DNA from: Clostridia bacterium
GTDB lineage: Bacteria; Bacillota; Clostridia; Lachnospirales; Anaerotignaceae
Direction: 5' to 3'
Length of the DNA: 64,000 nucleotides
Assembly: GCA_022786605.1 (NCBI GenBank)
Contig: JALFWW010000003.1
Coordinates: 1 to 64,000, forward strand
Shown piece after piece: positions 4,450 through 50,366 of the stretch. The notes beneath the pieces are model-generated. The model had not been told where the DNA came from. It saw only the letters and a program-made list of their open reading frames with translations, and made no database searches. How positions within the stretch are numbered: the stretch's first letter is position 1; each line of letters begins with the position of its first letter. The translations under genes were made by a program, and so were the position numbers.

Positions 4450-4555
4450 GCTTTTTGTCACACTCCTTTCAAATTAGAACATATCATCTCATATTTCCTT
4501 TTTCCTGTCAATTAACGAACCGTTAAGAAATCAGTCACAAAAAAACAGGAAAGCC

Positions 4556-4642
4556 TTTCGGGGCATCTTCATAAAAAAGCCGGAATCTTTATCATGACAA
4601 AAGATTCCAGCTTTCTGAATTTACAGGATTTTATAATGTTTT
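4556..4642. repeat. dispersed intergenic repeat, copy A (truncated)
   Basis: tttcggggcatcttcataa plus stem agccggaatcttt...aaagattccagct. Shared with copies at 23.4, 36.6, 45.6 and 49.7 kb. Confidence 0.7.
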
Positions 4643-4646
4643 CTCT

Positions 4647-5828
4647 TTAAGCCTTCAGCCAGCCGTTTTTCTGCAAAAATTCACGGATTTTTTCCATAGC
4701 TGTCTGTAGCTGTTCCATGCTGTAAGCATAAGAAATGCGCACATGTCCTTCGCCGCTTTCGCCGAAAGCATCCCCTGGCACCACTGCAACACCGGCTTCA
4801 TAGAGCAGACGTTCGCAAAATTCCTGGGAAGTCAAGCCTGTCACGGCAATAGAAGGGAATACATAGAATGCCCCTCTGGGTTCAAAGCATGTCAGCCCCA
4901 TATCATTGAGCGCTTTCACCAGATACTGCCGTCTTTCGTCATAAGCCCCACGCATTGCCCCCACATCACTGTCGCAAAGGGCATCATCCCGCAGGGCTTC
5001 CATGGCGCCATACTGGCTCATGGTAGGGGTACACATGATGATATAAGCATGTACCTTATTGATGACTTTCATCAGTTCTTTAGGACCTGCCGCGTAACCC
5101 AGACGCCAGCCTGTCATGGAGAAAGACTTCGCAAAGCCGTTGAGCACCACTGTCCGTTCTTTCATGCCTTCCACAGAAGCGATAGAAACATGATTTTTGC
5201 CGCCGTAAGTCAGTTCCGCGTAAATTTCATCGGAAATCACCAGCAAGTCGTGTTTGATGCAGACAGGCGCGATCCGTTCCAAATCTTCCCGTTCCATGAT
5301 GGCACCCGTAGGGTTATTGGGATACGGCAAAATCAATGCCTTTGTTTTGGGTGTGATAGCCGCTTCCAGTTCTTCCGGCATGAGTTTAAAGTCATTTTCC
5401 GCTTTGGTAGTCACCACCACAGGCACACCATGCTGCAACTGAATAGCAGGTTTATATGCCACATAGGAAGGTTCCACCACCAGCACTTCATCCCCCGGTT
5501 CCAGAACCGTACGCAGTGTTACGTCAATGGCTTCGGACGCACCAATGGTGCAAAGAATCTGGTCTGTGTCATAATCCAGATCAAAACGGCGTTTCAGATA
5601 ATGGGCAATTTCCTCCCGCAGTTTGGGCATGCCCCAGTTGGAGGAATATCTTGTTTTGCCTTCTGCCAGAGAATCCATGGCCGCTTTCCGCACACGTTCC
5701 GGTGTTTTGAAATCCGGTTCCCCAACGCCAAGGGAAATGATGTTGTCCATGGTAGCTACAATATCAAAAAATTTCCGAATACCGGAAGGCGGCAGAACCG
5801 CCACATGTTTTGCTGTAAAATCTCTCAT
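4647..5828 (-). CDS. PLP-dependent aminotransferase, class I/II
   Basis: SLGVGEPDFKTP, YPNNPTGAIM, NGFAKSFSMTGWRLGY (PLP-lysine motif). Confidence 0.93.
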   Translation of the reverse strand: MRDFTAKHVAVLPPSGIRKFFDIVATMDNIISLGVGEPDFKTPERVRKAAMDSLAEGKTRYSSNWGMPKLREEIAHYLKRRFDLDYDTDQILCTIGASEAIDVTLRTVLEPGDEVLVVEPSYVAYKPAIQLQHGVPVVVTTKAENDFKLMPEELEAAITPKTKALILPYPNNPTGAIMEREDLERIAPVCIKHDLLVISDEIYAELTYGGKNHVSIASVEGMKERTVVLNGFAKSFSMTGWRLGYAAGPKELMKVINKVHAYIIMCTPTMSQYGAMEALRDDALCDSDVGAMRGAYDERRQYLVKALNDMGLTCFEPRGAFYVFPSIAVTGLTSQEFCERLLYEAGVAVVPGDAFGESGEGHVRISYAYSMEQLQTAMEKIREFLQKNGWLKA

Positions 5829-23399: not shown

Positions 23400-23433
23400 C
23401 TTTTTCCTCAATCAAATACAAAAAAAGAAACTT

Positions 23434-23597
23434 CTTTCGGGGCATCTTCATAAGAAAAAGAAGGCGGAAATTTTCTTAGACAAAGACTTCCAGCCTTCTT
23501 TTTTTACAGCATTTTTGCTTCCAAAAACAGTCATCACCGTTTCCCTGAAAAAACCAAGGTAAAGGTAAAATGATATTTTCTTATGGGAAAACAGCTT
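23434..23597. repeat. dispersed intergenic repeat, copy B
   Basis: ttcggggcatcttcataagaaaa, stem around aggcggaaattttctt...aagacttccagcctt, and tail cttccaaaaacagtcatcaccgtttccc aligning with copy C. Confidence 0.75.
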
Positions 23598-23624
23598 TTT
23601 ATAACGATTTTATGCAAAAATACA

Positions 23625-23675: not shown

Positions 23676-25046
23676 TTATTTGTCAACAACAGGAATTTCG
23701 TCATCAGACCATGCATCCATATTGTCGTCGAACAGATATTTCTTGGTTTCAGATGCGATTACACCACTCAGACCAAGCAGAGCAACCAAGTTGGGGAATG
23801 CCATAGATGCATTCAGGATGTCCGCAATGCCCCAAACAACGTCCAGGCTGACTACGGAACCGATGAATACAACGATGGTCCATGCGATACGGAAAGGCAT
23901 GATTGCTTTCTGACCACACAGGTATACCCAACATCTTTCACCATAATAGCTCCAGCCCAGAATTGTGGACCATGCGAAAGTGATCAGACCGATTGTCAAT
24001 ACGATAGGTCCAATAACAGGGATGTTGCCGAATGCTGCGGAAGACAGAGAACCACCTGTCAGACCAGCCATACCTTCGGGGTCTTTCATGATAGAAGATA
24101 CCAGAACCAGACCTGTCAGCGCACATACGATAACTGTATCCCAGAATACACCAGTCATAGCGATCAGACCCTGACGAACGGGGTTTCTTGTTACAGCTGC
24201 CGCGTCAACGATAGGAGCGGAACCCAAACCAGATTCATTGGTGAACAGACCGCGGGCAATACCGAAGCGGATCGCCATCATAACTGTGGAACCGATGAAA
24301 CCGCCGCCTGCTGCCTGAGGTGTGAATGCGCTGGAAACGATCAGTTTCAGTGCGGGCAGTACATAAGAACCATTCAGAACCAGAATGATGATACAGCCAA
24401 TGATGTAGAAACCAGCCATGAAAGGAACCAGTTTTTCACATACTTTTGCGATAGACTTAACGCCGCCCAGAATAACCAGACCTGTCAAAACAGTGATAAC
24501 TGCGCCTGTGATGTAAGGAGATACGCCGAATGTATCGTATACCATACCAGTAATGGAGTTACCCTGTGTACCGTTACCGATACCGAAGCAGGCAAAACCA
24601 GCAAACAGCGCGAATACTACGCCCAGCCATTTCTGTTTCAGACCTCTTTCCAGAGCATACATGGGACCACCGATCATGCCGCCATCTTTGCCTTTTACTC
24701 TGTACTTGATCGCCAGAACGGCTTCGCCGTATTTGGAAGCGATACCGAAGCAGCCTGTCAGCCATACCCAGAATACCGCACCAGGACCACCGGATGCGAT
24801 GGCTGTAGCAACGCCGACGATGTTACCAGTACCGATGGTCGCTGCCAGTGCAGTTGCCAGCGCACCGAAACCAGATACGTCACCTTCTGCTTCTTTGTCG
24901 GGTGTTACGGAAAGCTTGATGCCTTTGAATACATATCTCTGAATCACTCTTGTACGCAGTGTCAGGAATACGTGTGTACCAAACAGCAATACGAGCATAA
25001 CTGGACCCCATACTACCCCTTGGATACTAGAAATAACATCCATCAT
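23676..25046 (-). CDS. alanine/glycine:cation symporter family protein (AGCS), copy 1
   Basis: ATIGTGNIVGVATAIASGGPGAVFWVW signature of the sodium:alanine symporter family. Confidence 0.95.
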   Translation of the reverse strand: MMDVISSIQGVVWGPVMLVLLFGTHVFLTLRTRVIQRYVFKGIKLSVTPDKEAEGDVSGFGALATALAATIGTGNIVGVATAIASGGPGAVFWVWLTGCFGIASKYGEAVLAIKYRVKGKDGGMIGGPMYALERGLKQKWLGVVFALFAGFACFGIGNGTQGNSITGMVYDTFGVSPYITGAVITVLTGLVILGGVKSIAKVCEKLVPFMAGFYIIGCIIILVLNGSYVLPALKLIVSSAFTPQAAGGGFIGSTVMMAIRFGIARGLFTNESGLGSAPIVDAAAVTRNPVRQGLIAMTGVFWDTVIVCALTGLVLVSSIMKDPEGMAGLTGGSLSSAAFGNIPVIGPIVLTIGLITFAWSTILGWSYYGERCWVYLCGQKAIMPFRIAWTIVVFIGSVVSLDVVWGIADILNASMAFPNLVALLGLSGVIASETKKYLFDDNMDAWSDDEIPVVDK

Positions 25047-25666: not shown

Positions 25667-27037
25667 TTATTTATCAACAACAGGGATTTCGTCATCAGAC
25701 CAACCATCCATATTGTCGTCGAACAGATATTTCTTTGTTTCGGATGCGATTACACCACTCAGACCAAGCAGAGCAACCAAGTTGGGGAATGCCATAGATG
25801 CATTCAGAATATCCGCGATACCCCAAACAGCGTCCAGCGTCATTACGGAACCAACGAATACAACCAGTGTATAGATGATACGGAAAGGCATGATTGCTTT
25901 CTGACCGCACAGGTATACCCAACATCTTTCACCATAGTAGCTCCAGCCCAGAATTGTGGACCATGCGAAGCAGATCAGACCTACTGTCAGAACGATAGGA
26001 CCAATAACAGGGATATTTGCAAATGCTGCGGAAGAGAGCGCACCGCCGGACAGACCGCTCATACCTTCGGGGTTTCTCAGGATAGAGGAAACCAGAACCA
26101 GACCTGTCAGCGCACATACGATAACTGTATCCCAGAATACGCCAGTCATAGCGATCAGACCCTGACGAACGGGGTTTCTTGTGGATGCAGCCGCGTCAAC
26201 GATAGGCGCAGAACCCAGACCAGCTTCGTTTGTGAACAGACCACGGGCGATACCAAAACGAATTGCCATCATTACTGTGGAACCGATGAAACCGCCGCCT
26301 GCTGCCTTCGGTGTGAATGCGCTGGAAACGATCAGTTTCAGTGCGTCCAGAACATAAGCATGGTTCAGGAACAGGATGATGATACAACCAATGATGTAGA
26401 AACCAGCCATGAAAGGAACCAGTTTTTCACATACTTTTGCGATGGATTTTACACCACCGATGATAACAACCCCTGTCAGGATTGTCAGAATCGCACCTGT
26501 GATGTAAGGAGAAACATGGAATGTATCGTTTACCATACCTGTGATGGAGTTGCCCTGTGTACCGTTACCGATACCGAAGCAGGCAAAACCAGCAAACAGT
26601 GCAAACAAAACACCCAGCCATTTCTGTTTCAGACCTCTTTCCAGAGCGTACATGGGACCACCGATCATGGAGCCGTCTTTTGCTCTTACTCTGTATTTGA
26701 TTGCCAGAACGGCTTCACCGTATTTAGAAGCGATACCGAAGCAGCCTGTCAGCCATACCCAGAATACCGCACCAGGACCACCAGATGCGATGGCTGTAGC
26801 TACACCGACGATGTTACCGGTACCAATGGTTGCCGCAAGGGCTGTTGCCAGCGCACCGAAACCAGATACGTCACCGCTTGCTTCTTTATCGGGTGTTACA
26901 GAAAGTTTGATACCTTTGAACATGTATCTCTGAATAACTCTTGTACGGATTGTCAAGAATACATGGGTACCAAAGAGCAGTACCAGCATGACAGGTCCCC
27001 ATACAACCCCTTGGATACTAGAAATAACGTCCATCAT
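25667..27037 (-). CDS. alanine/glycine:cation symporter family protein (AGCS), copy 2
   Basis: Same length (456 aa) and roughly 90% identical by eye to the copy at 23676-25046. Confidence 0.95.
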   Translation of the reverse strand: MMDVISSIQGVVWGPVMLVLLFGTHVFLTIRTRVIQRYMFKGIKLSVTPDKEASGDVSGFGALATALAATIGTGNIVGVATAIASGGPGAVFWVWLTGCFGIASKYGEAVLAIKYRVRAKDGSMIGGPMYALERGLKQKWLGVLFALFAGFACFGIGNGTQGNSITGMVNDTFHVSPYITGAILTILTGVVIIGGVKSIAKVCEKLVPFMAGFYIIGCIIILFLNHAYVLDALKLIVSSAFTPKAAGGGFIGSTVMMAIRFGIARGLFTNEAGLGSAPIVDAAASTRNPVRQGLIAMTGVFWDTVIVCALTGLVLVSSILRNPEGMSGLSGGALSSAAFANIPVIGPIVLTVGLICFAWSTILGWSYYGERCWVYLCGQKAIMPFRIIYTLVVFVGSVMTLDAVWGIADILNASMAFPNLVALLGLSGVIASETKKYLFDDNMDGWSDDEIPVVDK

Positions 27038-32868: not shown

Positions 32869-35147
32869 TTATCCATCATGCCCATAGCGATTTTTTCCGG
32901 TGTGATGGGCAGTTCTGTAAAGCGCAGACCTGTTGCGTTATAAATAGCCTGCGCGATGGCAGGTGCCGGTGTATTGATAACGATTTCCCCGATGGATTTC
33001 GCACCAAAAGGACCGGTAGGTTCATAACTGCTGTCAAATTCCACACGCAGTTTGCCCATATCCATACGGGTAGGGATTTTGTACTGCATCAAAGAATTTT
33101 CAGCCAGTTCGCCTTTTTCGTTATAGGTGATATTTTCATGGAGCGCCATACCGATACCCTGTACCAGACCGCCTTCTACCTGTACTCTTGCCAGATTGGG
33201 GTTCACAACAGTACCGCAGTCTACCACTGCCGCAAAGTCCATAAGTTTCACACTGCCTGTTTCCGGGTCAACTTCCACTTCCACAGCGCCAGCCATGAAA
33301 GGCGGAGGAGAAACCGGTGAAGAATGGGCTTCTGTGGCAAAGAGGGCATTTTCCCCTGCGCACATGATGGCATTGCCGATGTCTTTCCGGCTGATGCTGC
33401 TGCCATCTTTCAGGCTGTATACTTTTTCCCCGTCAAATTCCACATCATCTACGGAGCAGCCCAGTTTTTCCGCGCCATATGCTTTCATTTTGTCCACCAG
33501 TGTCTGGCAGGCTTTTACAGTCGCCATACCTGTTACATAAGTGGTGCTGGATGCGTAAGAACCGCTGTCATAAGGAGAAACGTCTGTATCAACGCCATAC
33601 ACGATGATGTCATCCACAGAGCAGTCCAGACAATCCGCTGCCATCTGAGACAAAATGGTATCACAGCCGGTACCCATATCAGAAGCACCAATGGTCAGAG
33701 CATAGAAACCATCGTCGTTGATTTTGATGGAAACGGAACCAGTGTCCACACTGGGGATACCGGAACCCTGCATTGCCATCGCGATACCAACGCCACGGAT
33801 TTTGCCGTCAGGCATGACACGTCTGGGATATTTTTCTTTCCAGCCGATCATTTCCGCTGTTCTTTCCAGACAACGATCCAGCGTACAGCTGGTGGCTGTT
33901 TCACCGTAATAGCCGTGCATTACGTCGCCTTCTCTGGTCAGGTTCATTTCACGCAGTGCCACAGGGTCCATATCCAGCTTCACTGCCAGTTCATTGATGG
34001 CAGATTCCACCGCGAAAATACCCTGTGTTGCGCCGTAACCACGGTAGGCACCTGCGGACATTTTGTTGGTATAAACAACATCGTACTGGAAACGGAATGC
34101 TTCCGCCTTGCTGTAAAGAGGAATGGATTTATGACCAGACAGACCAACTGTCGTAGGACCATGTTCCCCAAATGCACCTGTATTGGACAGTGTTTTCACT
34201 TCGATGCCACGGATATGACCATCTTTGTTGGCACCGATGCGCACTTTGATTTCCATTTCATGTCTGGGAGAAGAAGCGATAAGGCTTTCTTCTCTGGTAT
34301 AAATGATTTTCGCAGGTCTGCCTGTTTTCAGTGTGACGATAGCAGGATATACCTCCGCTACAACAGTCTGTTTCGCGCCGAAACCGCCGCCGATTCTGGG
34401 TTTAATGACACGAATCTTGGACTTAGGAATATCCAGCGCGTTAGACAGGATACGGCGTACATGGAAAGGCACCTGTGTGGAGCTGATGATATTCAGTCTG
34501 CCGTAAGTATCCATCTGAGTATAAGTACGGAAGGTTTCCATCATGGTCTGCTGTACGGCTTTTGTGTGGTAAGTGTTTTCCACAACCACATCACTTTCCG
34601 CAATGACTTTATCCACATCGCCATGTTCTTCCAAACCGCTTGCACACAGATTGCGCTTGTTGTCCGCGCCTACAGGGCAAAGTGCCTGCCAGTTATCTTC
34701 GGGATGCACCAGAATGGGATTATCCTTTGCTTCGTGGAAATCCAGCACAGGTTCCAGTACATTGTATTTTACTTTAATAACTTTCATTGCCTGATCTACA
34801 GCTTTTTCTGTTTCCCCTGCCACAATGGCAACGGCATCCCCAACGAAACGGACACGCTTGTCCAGAATCAGTCTGTCATAGGGGCTGGGTTCAGGATATG
34901 TCTGCCCTGCCATGGTGAAACGCTTCTGAGGCACGTCTTCATAAGTCAGAACGCAAACGATACCGGGCAGTTTTTCAGCGATATCTTTTTTGATTTCCAG
35001 AATTTCCGCATGGGCATGGGGGCTGCGCAGCACCTTTACCACCAGACAATCCTTGGGCGCAATATCATCGGTGTAAACAGGTTTGCCTGTTACCAATGCC
35101 ATGGCGTCTTTTTTCCGAATGGGCTGATTTACATATTTCATTCTCAT
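32865..35147 (-). CDS. xanthine dehydrogenase family protein, molybdopterin-binding subunit
   Basis: GGGFGAKQ, SAGAYRGYGATQGIFAVES, GAKSIGEIVINTPAPAI (Mo-proximal Glu). Confidence 0.95.
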   Translation of the reverse strand: MRMKYVNQPIRKKDAMALVTGKPVYTDDIAPKDCLVVKVLRSPHAHAEILEIKKDIAEKLPGIVCVLTYEDVPQKRFTMAGQTYPEPSPYDRLILDKRVRFVGDAVAIVAGETEKAVDQAMKVIKVKYNVLEPVLDFHEAKDNPILVHPEDNWQALCPVGADNKRNLCASGLEEHGDVDKVIAESDVVVENTYHTKAVQQTMMETFRTYTQMDTYGRLNIISSTQVPFHVRRILSNALDIPKSKIRVIKPRIGGGFGAKQTVVAEVYPAIVTLKTGRPAKIIYTREESLIASSPRHEMEIKVRIGANKDGHIRGIEVKTLSNTGAFGEHGPTTVGLSGHKSIPLYSKAEAFRFQYDVVYTNKMSAGAYRGYGATQGIFAVESAINELAVKLDMDPVALREMNLTREGDVMHGYYGETATSCTLDRCLERTAEMIGWKEKYPRRVMPDGKIRGVGIAMAMQGSGIPSVDTGSVSIKINDDGFYALTIGASDMGTGCDTILSQMAADCLDCSVDDIIVYGVDTDVSPYDSGSYASSTTYVTGMATVKACQTLVDKMKAYGAEKLGCSVDDVEFDGEKVYSLKDGSSISRKDIGNAIMCAGENALFATEAHSSPVSPPPFMAGAVEVEVDPETGSVKLMDFAAVVDCGTVVNPNLARVQVEGGLVQGIGMALHENITYNEKGELAENSLMQYKIPTRMDMGKLRVEFDSSYEPTGPFGAKSIGEIVINTPAPAIAQAIYNATGLRFTELPITPEKIAMGMMDK

Positions 35148-36616: not shown

Positions 36617-36830
36617 AAAAAGGAGTGTGTTTTCGGGGCATCTTCTGAAGAAAACAAAGAAAGCTGAAATCCTTATGATATACTGAGGATTCCAGCTTTC
36701 TTATCTTTGCCGAGATTTTATTAGATAGTTTTCTTCCAAAGACTGTCGTCACAATTCCCCTTAAGAAATCAAGGAAAAGAAAACCTAATGTTTTCTTAAA
36801 GGGAAGTTGCTTTTCAAACACACTCCTTTT
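36617..36830. repeat. dispersed intergenic repeat, copy C (full-length, inverted-repeat ends)
   Basis: 15-bp perfect inverted repeat aaaaggagtgtgttt (36618-36632) / aaacacactcctttt (36816-36830) enclosing the shared ggggcatcttc, hairpin and tail modules. Confidence 0.8.
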
Positions 36831-45596: not shown

Positions 45597-45615
45597 GTTT
45601 TCCCCTCCCGAAAAC

Positions 45616-45794
45616 AAAAGGTGTTGACTTTATAAAAAAATAGCCGGAATCCTTAGGAATCAAAGGGCTTCCAGCTATCTTCTTTTTACTTGAATGATTA
45701 TAAGGAATGTTTTACGGTCCGTTTCCCTTCAGAAATCAAGAAAAAGACAACTATCGTTTTTGAATGGAAACCTGTTTTTTGCCAACACCCTTTT
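45616..45794. repeat. dispersed intergenic repeat, copy D
   Basis: Ends aaaaggtgttg / caacaccctttt are inverted. Stem agccggaatcctt...gggcttccagct, tail gtttcccttcagaaatcaagaaaaag. Confidence 0.75.
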
Positions 45795-45796
45795 TC

Positions 45797-46621
45797 TCAA
45801 ATCATAAATGGCAGATAATTCCCCGCAATACGCAGTGCCACCACAAACACAAGATACACTGCCGTCAGCACAACTGCCCGATAATCCCGATTTTCCAGAT
45901 GCATCACATTCATACGTGTTCTGTGTTCATCCCCATGGTAACATCTGGCTTCCATAGCCATGGCAAGTTCTTCTGCCCGGCGGAATGCGGAAATGAACAG
46001 AGGTACCAGAATGGGAATCATACTCTTAGCTTTCTGCATCAGGTTCCCGGTATCAAAGTCTGCACCTCTTGCCTGCTGTGCTTTGATGATCTTATCTGTT
46101 TCATCCAGCAGTGTAGGAATGAAACGCAGTGCAATGGTCATCATCATAGCGATTTCATGGGCAGGCACACCAATGCGTTTCAAAGGACGCAGGATGTACT
46201 CAATGCCGTCTGTAAGCTGGATGGGTGTTGTGGTCAGTGTCAGTACAGAGGAGCCCACAATGAGCAGTACCAGACGCACACACATTTTCACAGCCATGTA
46301 AATGCCTTCCCATGTGAGATGCAGGAAGCCAAATTCCCAGATCACCCGTTCCCCTTGAGTCAAAAAGAGGTTGATGACCGCTGTAAAGAGAATGATGATG
46401 ACGATACTTTTCAGCCCTCTTAACATAAATTTCAAAGGCACTTTGGATACTTTGATCACCACGCCCAAAATGGCTGTCACGCAGACATAAGCCGCAAGGG
46501 TATTGACTACGAACAGCGAAATGATAAACAAAAATGTCACGACAATTTTGACTCTGGCATCCAGCCGATGAATCGGCGATTCTGCCGGATAATATTGTCC
46601 GATGGTTATATCCCGAATCAT
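45797..46621 (-). CDS. ecfT: energy-coupling factor transporter transmembrane protein EcfT
   Basis: LDARVKIV, RRAEELAMAMEARCY EcfT motifs; gene order. Confidence 0.94.
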   Translation of the reverse strand: MIRDITIGQYYPAESPIHRLDARVKIVVTFLFIISLFVVNTLAAYVCVTAILGVVIKVSKVPLKFMLRGLKSIVIIILFTAVINLFLTQGERVIWEFGFLHLTWEGIYMAVKMCVRLVLLIVGSSVLTLTTTPIQLTDGIEYILRPLKRIGVPAHEIAMMMTIALRFIPTLLDETDKIIKAQQARGADFDTGNLMQKAKSMIPILVPLFISAFRRAEELAMAMEARCYHGDEHRTRMNVMHLENRDYRAVVLTAVYLVFVVALRIAGNYLPFMI

Positions 46622-49608: not shown

Positions 49609-49649
49609 ATGTTCTCTGATAAAACAATGCCATAAAAAGCAAAAAAGAC

Positions 49650-49796
49650 AGACAGAAAACATTTTTTACTGATTTCTGAACGGAAACTGCGGCAGCTGGC
49701 TCCAGAAGAAAACGCGTCTGAAAAATCCAAAAAAATAAGCTGGAACCCTTGCTCAAGGATTCCAGCTATATTTCTGTCTCTTATGAAGCAGCACCT
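49650..49796. repeat. dispersed intergenic repeat, copy E (inverted orientation)
   Basis: Reverse complement: GCTGCTTCATAAGA, stem AGCTGGAATCCTTGAGCAAGGGTTCCAGCTT, tail GTTTCCGTTCAGAAATCAGTAAAAAATGTTTTCTG. Stem plus T-run also serves as a terminator after rplQ. Confidence 0.7.
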
Positions 49797-49823
49797 AATC
49801 GTGTCTGCCTGAATTCATAAAAA

Positions 49824-50366
49824 TTAAACCAGTTCGATGATAACTTCCATCGCACCGTCGCCTTTACGAGCGCCCAGTTTCACAATTCTTGTGTAACCGC
49901 CGTTACGACCAGCGTATTTAGGAGCGATTTCGTCGAACATTTTTGCAGCCATGTCAACTTTTTTGCTGTTCTTTCTTACTTTCTTGCCATCAGCAGGAAC
50001 TTCTGTAACAGGGTACAGGTAAGCCAGCATCTGACGTCTAGCTGCCAGTCTGGAAGGTTTATCCTTCTTAACTGTTTTCTTAACTTCGTCATAAACAGTT
50101 ACTTTTTTGCCGTTTACAACTTCTTTCACTCTTTTGCCGTTCGCGTCTTTTTTCGCTACTTTTGCTGTTACTTCAACTTCTTCGAAGTTTTCTCTTTCTT
50201 TCACAGCCAGAGTGATCAGTTTTTCAGCGATTCTTCTTACTTCTTTCGCTCTTGTTTCTGTTGTTTTGATTTTACCGTGGTACAACAGGTTTGTAACCTG
50301 GTTTCTCAGCAGAGCTTTTCTCTGAGGAGTTGTTTTACCCAGTTTTCTATATCCGGATGCATGCAT
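49824..50366 (-). CDS. rplQ: 50S ribosomal protein L17 (long form, 180 aa)
   Basis: [50 protein letters not shown]...[25 protein letters not shown]. Confidence 0.97.

Follow-up and report, generated by a model that had tools for sequence, protein, structure and literature searches.

The intergenic repeat at positions 36617-36830 of the window, the 64,000-nucleotide stretch of DNA that was analysed as a whole, is most probably (roughly 0.77) one copy of a mobile, non-autonomous repeat, ~182 nt long, whose insertion target is the loop of existing intrinsic (Rho-independent) terminator hairpins. The complementary ends seen at the repeat are the halves of a pre-existing, locus-specific intrinsic-terminator stem, arranged as A-tract/arm ... 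arm'/T-tract. The original prediction of a dispersed, structured and mobile repeat was borne out, as conservation across the genome extends to the left block and the tail, and empty sites were found, which is clearly not the picture of a generic hairpin conserved by itself. The inverted-repeat ends that it took for the termini of the element are, however, the split stem of the host terminator, and are found without the element in relatives.

The window comes from the draft genome (2.3 Mb, 89% completeness) of a gut bacterium of the genus Anaerotignum, here termed G000; the genus was assigned from a search with the neighbouring gene at 45797-46621. A covariance model was built from 39 copies, of which the copy under study (copy C) was the sole member from the window. 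The model recovered exactly the five loci that had been proposed, each on the expected strand and with E values from 7e-57 to 5e-13, and its other matches in the window were mainly the reverse strand of the same palindromic loci. All five loci, whose sequence was also read directly, lie directly beyond the 3′ end of a minus-strand gene. Copy C was matched at 36617-36827 on the plus strand (207 bits, E 6.8e-57), and the whole occupied terminator, that is, split stem plus core in orientation A, covers 36617-36830 on the plus strand with the genes alongside on the minus strand. The previously noted 15-bp inverted repeat of this copy was located by an inverted-repeat scan at 36618-36632 (AAAAGGAGTGTGTTT, the left half of the host stem with its A-tract) and 36816-36830 (AAACACACTCCTTTT, the right half with its T-tract), both on the plus strand and together forming helix P1; no other perfect 15-bp inverted repeat with arms up to 260 nt apart is present in the window. 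The mobile core, TTT CGGGGCATC ... GTTGCTTT, spans 36631-36813 (+), its terminal Ts being ambiguous by 1-2 nt. Within it, on the same strand, lie the 5′ arm of P2 (helix 1; 36641-36655), the terminator-like hairpin P3 inside P2 (helix 2; 36656-36703), the 3′ arm of P2 (36728-36742) and the hairpin P4 (helix 3; 36751-36810), which is of the type GCAA..TTCCCCTTAAGAAA / TTTCTTAAGGGGAA..TTGC.

The remaining four copies in the window are old, degraded or internally deleted. Copy A (4542-4720, plus strand, E 5e-13) is truncated, with its right part missing, and its covariance-model match runs beyond the recognisable 4556-4642. Copy B (23421-23612, plus strand, E 1.6e-27) is diverged and has no recognisable complementary arms, and a separate plain terminator lies downstream of it. 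Copy D, old and with a strongly diverged core, occupies the terminator AAAAGGTGTTG/CAACACCCTTTT at 45610-45794 on the plus strand (match 45610-45792, E 1.5e-13); this end pair, which had been noted to differ from that of copy C, was located at 45616-45626 and 45783-45794 and is perfect over 7 bp. Copy E, also old and in the opposite orientation (49622-49813, minus strand, E 8.2e-16), sits 3′ of the gene at 49824-50366. Elsewhere in the window, a 300-nt direct repeat with 91% identity (23676-23975 and 25667-25966) was observed in two adjacent 456-aa genes and probably reflects gene duplication.

Across copies, the core begins after (Y)TT in the loop and ends in a nearly invariant CTTT. In orientation A it consists of (C)TTTAGGGGCATCTTCATAAGAAAAC, the P3 hairpin, a spacer, GTTTTCTTATGAAGACAGCC and then GTCGCAATTCCCCTTAAGAAA...TTTCTTAAGGGGAAGTTGCTTT. 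The element starts with TTAGGGGCATC... on the left and finishes with ...GTTGCTTT on the right, and the core ends, TTAGGGG.. and ..GTTGCTTT, are not inverted repeats of each other. In the alignment of copies, 92.8% of the cells were paired in P2, 95.9% in P3 and 94.9% in P4. Double changes were present at 10 of the 17 pairs of P3, and 15 pairs had changed on both sides, compared with 5.8 in shuffles that ignore relatedness among the copies; slid controls likewise remained well below the observed value. Full copies fold as P1[P4, P2[P3]], whether as RNA or as DNA. For one of them (L005) the fold gave z = -13.6 as RNA and z = -11.6 as DNA, while copy C reached a z of about -8 on each strand, with its left and right arms paired on both. 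The core is thus made of the hairpin branches P2/P3 and P4, both conserved and covarying, with the host stem P1 closing them. Internal deletions removing P3, P4 or the middle part were seen in four copies (L275, L280, L281 and L290) and apparently arose between TGTTTTCTTA direct repeats. At the site corresponding to copy D, genome G002 (L096) has only a P4-like hairpin in the terminator loop and genome G006 (L099) has a bare terminator; the P4 of G002 may be a separate short insert or the remnant of a deletion.

Most copies carry their own complementary arm pair outside the core, together with an A-tract and a T-tract. The arms of 64 copies from three species were tested using mismatched arms, taken from different copies, as the control. 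The longest Watson-Crick run had a mean of 9.5 nt for a copy's own arms and 6.15 +/- 0.16 nt for mismatched arms, the joined arms gave -12.9 kcal/mol and -4.1 kcal/mol, respectively, and 48 of the 64 copies exceeded the 5% level of the mismatched arms. Covariation of the end pairing, which had been put forward as a check, was weak for P1 in the fixed register of the alignment (A1) owing to shifts of 1-3 nt in the arm register among copies, and that measure was set aside for the register-free tests, in which own arms match far better. Once joined, the arms mostly form near-perfect terminator hairpins with loops of ~3-5 nt; hairpins rebuilt in this way include AAAAAAGTGGGTATGGATTTCCATGCCCACTTTTT (L007), AAAAACCCGAAACACAATTTTGTGTTTCGGGTTTT (L028) and AAAGGGATAAAACCTTTCGGTTTTATCCCTTT (L025, ends trimmed). 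Split-terminator ends were also present in other genera (L040, L041, L042, L055, L057 and L059). In about one quarter of the copies the arms are poorly matched, which we infer to stem from decay or from recombination between copies, and L020 and L006 would be products of such recombination. The right end reads TTT in all 64 copies and is preceded by C in 63 of them, regardless of the left flank, and TT is present at the left end of ~60. No target-site duplication had been noticed originally, and one of 3 nt or more is excluded because the left flank varies and the right CTTT hardly does; a TT duplication would be indistinguishable within the T-runs, which leave the cut ambiguous by 1-2 nt.

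Occupied and empty versions of the same sites were then compared by searching five 20-kb stretches for synteny with G001 and G004 (Anaerotignum lactatifermentans), after which the sites were read. At nine loci, 12 empty alleles were identified in which a plain terminator takes the place of the occupied one in these two related species. The empty alleles were those of G001 at sites D and E, C18:40500, C18:45737 and C18:44478, that of G004 at C23:44691, and those of both G001 and G004 at C12:48870, C14:67888 and C14:78286, so that the last three loci are empty in two of the three species. Occupied and empty alleles have a recognisably shared stem at D, C12:48870, C18:40500, C18:45737, C23:44691 and C14:67888 (left arm). 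At site D, AAAAGGTGTTGACTTT[core]...TTGCCAACACCCTTTTT in G000 stands against AAAAGGTGTTGACTTTCGCCAACACCCTTTTT in G001, where the empty counterpart of copy D is AAAACAAAAGGTGTTGACTTTCGCCAACACCCTTTTT. Similarly, the empty AAAAAGACCGAATCTTTATAGGTTCGGTCTTTTTT of G004 at C12:48870 corresponds to AAAAAGACCGAATCTTTAGGGAC[...]GTTGCTTTACGGGTTCGGACTTTTTT in G000, and the empty AAAAAGCACGAAATCCTTTCGACTCCGTGCTTTTTT of G001 at C18:45737 to AAAAAGCACGAAATCCTTAGGGG[...]TTTACTTTCGACTTCGTGCTTTTTT in G000. Eight of the 12 empty alleles were folded and all were hairpins, several with an opposite-strand GAAA loop; the four at C14:67888 and C14:78286 were judged by eye. A precise loss in G001 is suggested at site D, since G000 and G004 share an old, diverged copy there and G001 is clean; this loss would perhaps have occurred by slippage between the flanking CTTT motifs.

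Some loci departed from this arrangement. At C12:52252 the element lies next to a terminator, outside its loop, and the L214:5031 region was rejected as a candidate empty site in G000 as no clean pair was found. The empty terminator at C14:67888 (L285 and L286) has the loop TTTT in G004 and AAAA in G001 on an identical stem, a difference that resembles an inversion of the loop. Separately, a hairpin-rich insert of ~290 nt, which is a different type of element, was observed right after a terminator at L215:6619-6912 (G000:C23 ~34118-34411) and is absent from G001 and G004.

The five copies expected from the window are all present there, but the family is much larger: at least 150 copies were scored with the covariance model in G000, and at least 150 in G004. 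With copy C as the query, ~40 full-length relatives of 80-85% identity were found in the window's genome. The repeat was detected in 18 of 58 genomes and 5 of 17 genera of the host bacterial family, including all seven Anaerotignum genomes, with G000-G004, G006, G012, G014 and G027 being rich in copies; contig NZ_FRAH01000034.1 of A. lactatifermentans DSM 14214 bears one (E 4e-41). Searches of viral contigs, plasmids and phages returned no match to the repeat, and no Rfam family matched it at the gathering score. As far as was searched, the repeat is limited to a single bacterial family. Two pairs of copies in G001 are 100% identical, which indicates recent spread.

Gene orientation around the 64 copies was counted from codon-scored, uncurated gene calls made with our own script. 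The flanking genes are convergent for 28 copies, co-directional for 35 (usually with the copy near the 3′ end of the upstream one) and divergent for one, which places 63 of 64 at 3′ gene ends. Both orientations relative to transcription occur (-- 23, ++ 12), which disfavours targeting at the RNA level and makes a DNA strand the likelier target. The orientation bias would fit terminators with a GAAA loop in the RNA.

The sampled loci yielded no long, autonomous, transposase-bearing version that shares the ends of the repeat. One explanation, to which we give a rather low probability, is that of a REP/REPIN-like repeat moved in trans by a RAYT or another Y1 (IS200/IS605) transposase; it is compatible with insertion into terminator loops, because it only names the enzyme. 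Y1 TnpA genes were present in six of the nine genomes tested and in G000, and the lack of a clear duplication, the one-strand site 3′ of a T-rich motif and the hairpin-rich ends are all Y1-like. The Y1 loci inspected were, however, IS200-like with ends of their own, and the resident IS200 elements were set aside as the obvious mobiliser because they target (T)TTG after terminators and not (Y)TT loops. Moreover, no Y1 gene was detected in the repeat-rich G003, G012 and G014, drafts that may be incomplete, and at the inspected Y1 loci no repeat adjoined a TnpA as its own flank. Two of these loci were located inside copies of the repeat. At 10 of 10 left ends inspected in G001, G004 and G005 (L235, L236, L238, L241, L242, L247, L251, L253, L258 and L262), the IS200-like element directly follows a terminator-like hairpin, in most cases 3′ of a (T)TTG within the T-tract. 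Two IS200 copies, L103 (G000:C5 ~91400-92350) and L253 (G004:C31), immediately follow P3 of the repeat, as if IS200 treated this hairpin as a terminator.

The strongly covarying structure and the near-constant position at 3′ gene ends could also be read as those of a selected multicopy 3′-UTR RNA or terminator module, in which P1 would be a true covarying helix kept for its function and rarely spreading. Orthologous copies are often 97-99% identical where their flanks are ~90% identical, but this comparison is biased, as the copies were chosen for top scores, and selection on the element is not claimed from it. Copies with 85-97% identity elsewhere have unrelated arms, a pattern that compensatory mutation could not readily yield, the same arms occur without the element in relatives, and sites are polymorphic between species; we consider such a module improbable. 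An ordinary MITE with a short TT duplication, found near gene ends through tolerance and not through targeting, is less probable still. The repeat is indeed short (~180 bp), non-coding and present in many intergenic copies, in which respects the proposed MITE-like character stands, and a 2-bp TT duplication would be compatible with the T-runs, but the shared terminal inverted repeats (TIRs) of a classical MITE are missing, the core ends do not pair as such, and mere tolerance does not account for the precision with which the hairpin apex is hit at most sites. That ordinary terminators merely resemble one another by chance is refuted for practical purposes: the P3 hairpin is like common terminators, but at least 40 copies share 80-98% identity across ~180 nt and the model has at least 150 matches.

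The closest known systems are each partly like the repeat and partly different from it. SPRITE of Streptococcus pneumoniae (PMC3049150), compared by description, is likewise short, intergenic, enriched at 3′ ends and terminator-like, with AAAA/TTTT ends and no established target-site duplication, but it has one 18-bp duplex with a U-rich tract and no empty sites available, whereas the repeat has a branched core that splits locus-specific terminators and empty sites are shown. BOX and RUP (PMC3049150), also compared by description, are structured, with ends that pair when folded, and BOX is modular too; these have TIRs of their own and cause duplications, whereas in the present repeat the ends that pair are those of the host site and duplications of 3 nt or more are excluded. 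REP/REPIN sequences with RAYT (PMC3116915) share the many extragenic, palindromic copies, probably moved in trans; REPs are ~20-60 nt with a conserved palindromic core beside a single-copy RAYT, while the present repeat is ~182 nt with three helices and no RAYT association was seen. IS1397, IS621 and ISKpn1 (PMC1525189) also insert into hairpin-forming intergenic sequence but recognise one family of REP palindromes, unlike the unrelated hairpins with a T-rich loop entered here. Group IIC introns (PMC7923331) likewise target intrinsic terminators, but their insertion sites are downstream of the stem-loop or in attC, and they are reverse-transcriptase-bearing ribozymes, whereas the repeat lies in the loop, is ~182 nt long and has no Rfam intron match.

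In the proposed mechanism, insertion would take place on whichever strand has 5′-(Y)TT in its loop, leaving both stem halves and the A- and T-tracts intact, and the host stem, as P1, would then close a larger structure with the P2/P3 and P4 branches. The terminator would remain at least partly functional, so that terminators could serve as safe landing sites. The portable terminator of the original prediction is retained in so far as the internal P3 looks terminator-like, but the element mostly enters terminators that are already present. The P1 stem, A-tract and T-tract are retained in many copies, even in the old copy D, and termination is therefore probably kept under selection; it may be brought about by P1 around its structured loop of ~180 nt or by P3. 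Less certainly, movement may occur at the DNA level through a recombinase acting on a single-stranded or extruded hairpin loop; the T-rich, strand-specific target, the fixed 3′ end and the lack of a long duplication would point to HUH/Y1-like or site-specific recombination.

In an incomplete literature search, no earlier description of insertion into terminator loops was found. It is conceivable, at somewhat less than even odds, that the repeat represents an undescribed class of mobile DNA, in which a recombinase reads the apex of sequence-unrelated hairpins (T-rich terminator loops, cut 3′ of YTT) in place of a target sequence, terminators form a genome-wide safe harbour and loss can restore the terminator precisely. 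Terminator predictors that expect short loops will miss occupied terminators, whose loops have grown to ~180 nt. The finding suggests that an enzyme able to recognise hairpin loops exists, and such an enzyme would be attractive for directing insertions to gene ends; each copy can be tested as an occupied or empty site in relatives. The usual account of small mobile repeats in bacteria is that intergenic DNA tolerates them; in the present case a structure common to many gene ends is targeted, and preservation of the stop-signal stem on insertion would explain how a 2.3-Mb draft genome bears so many copies.
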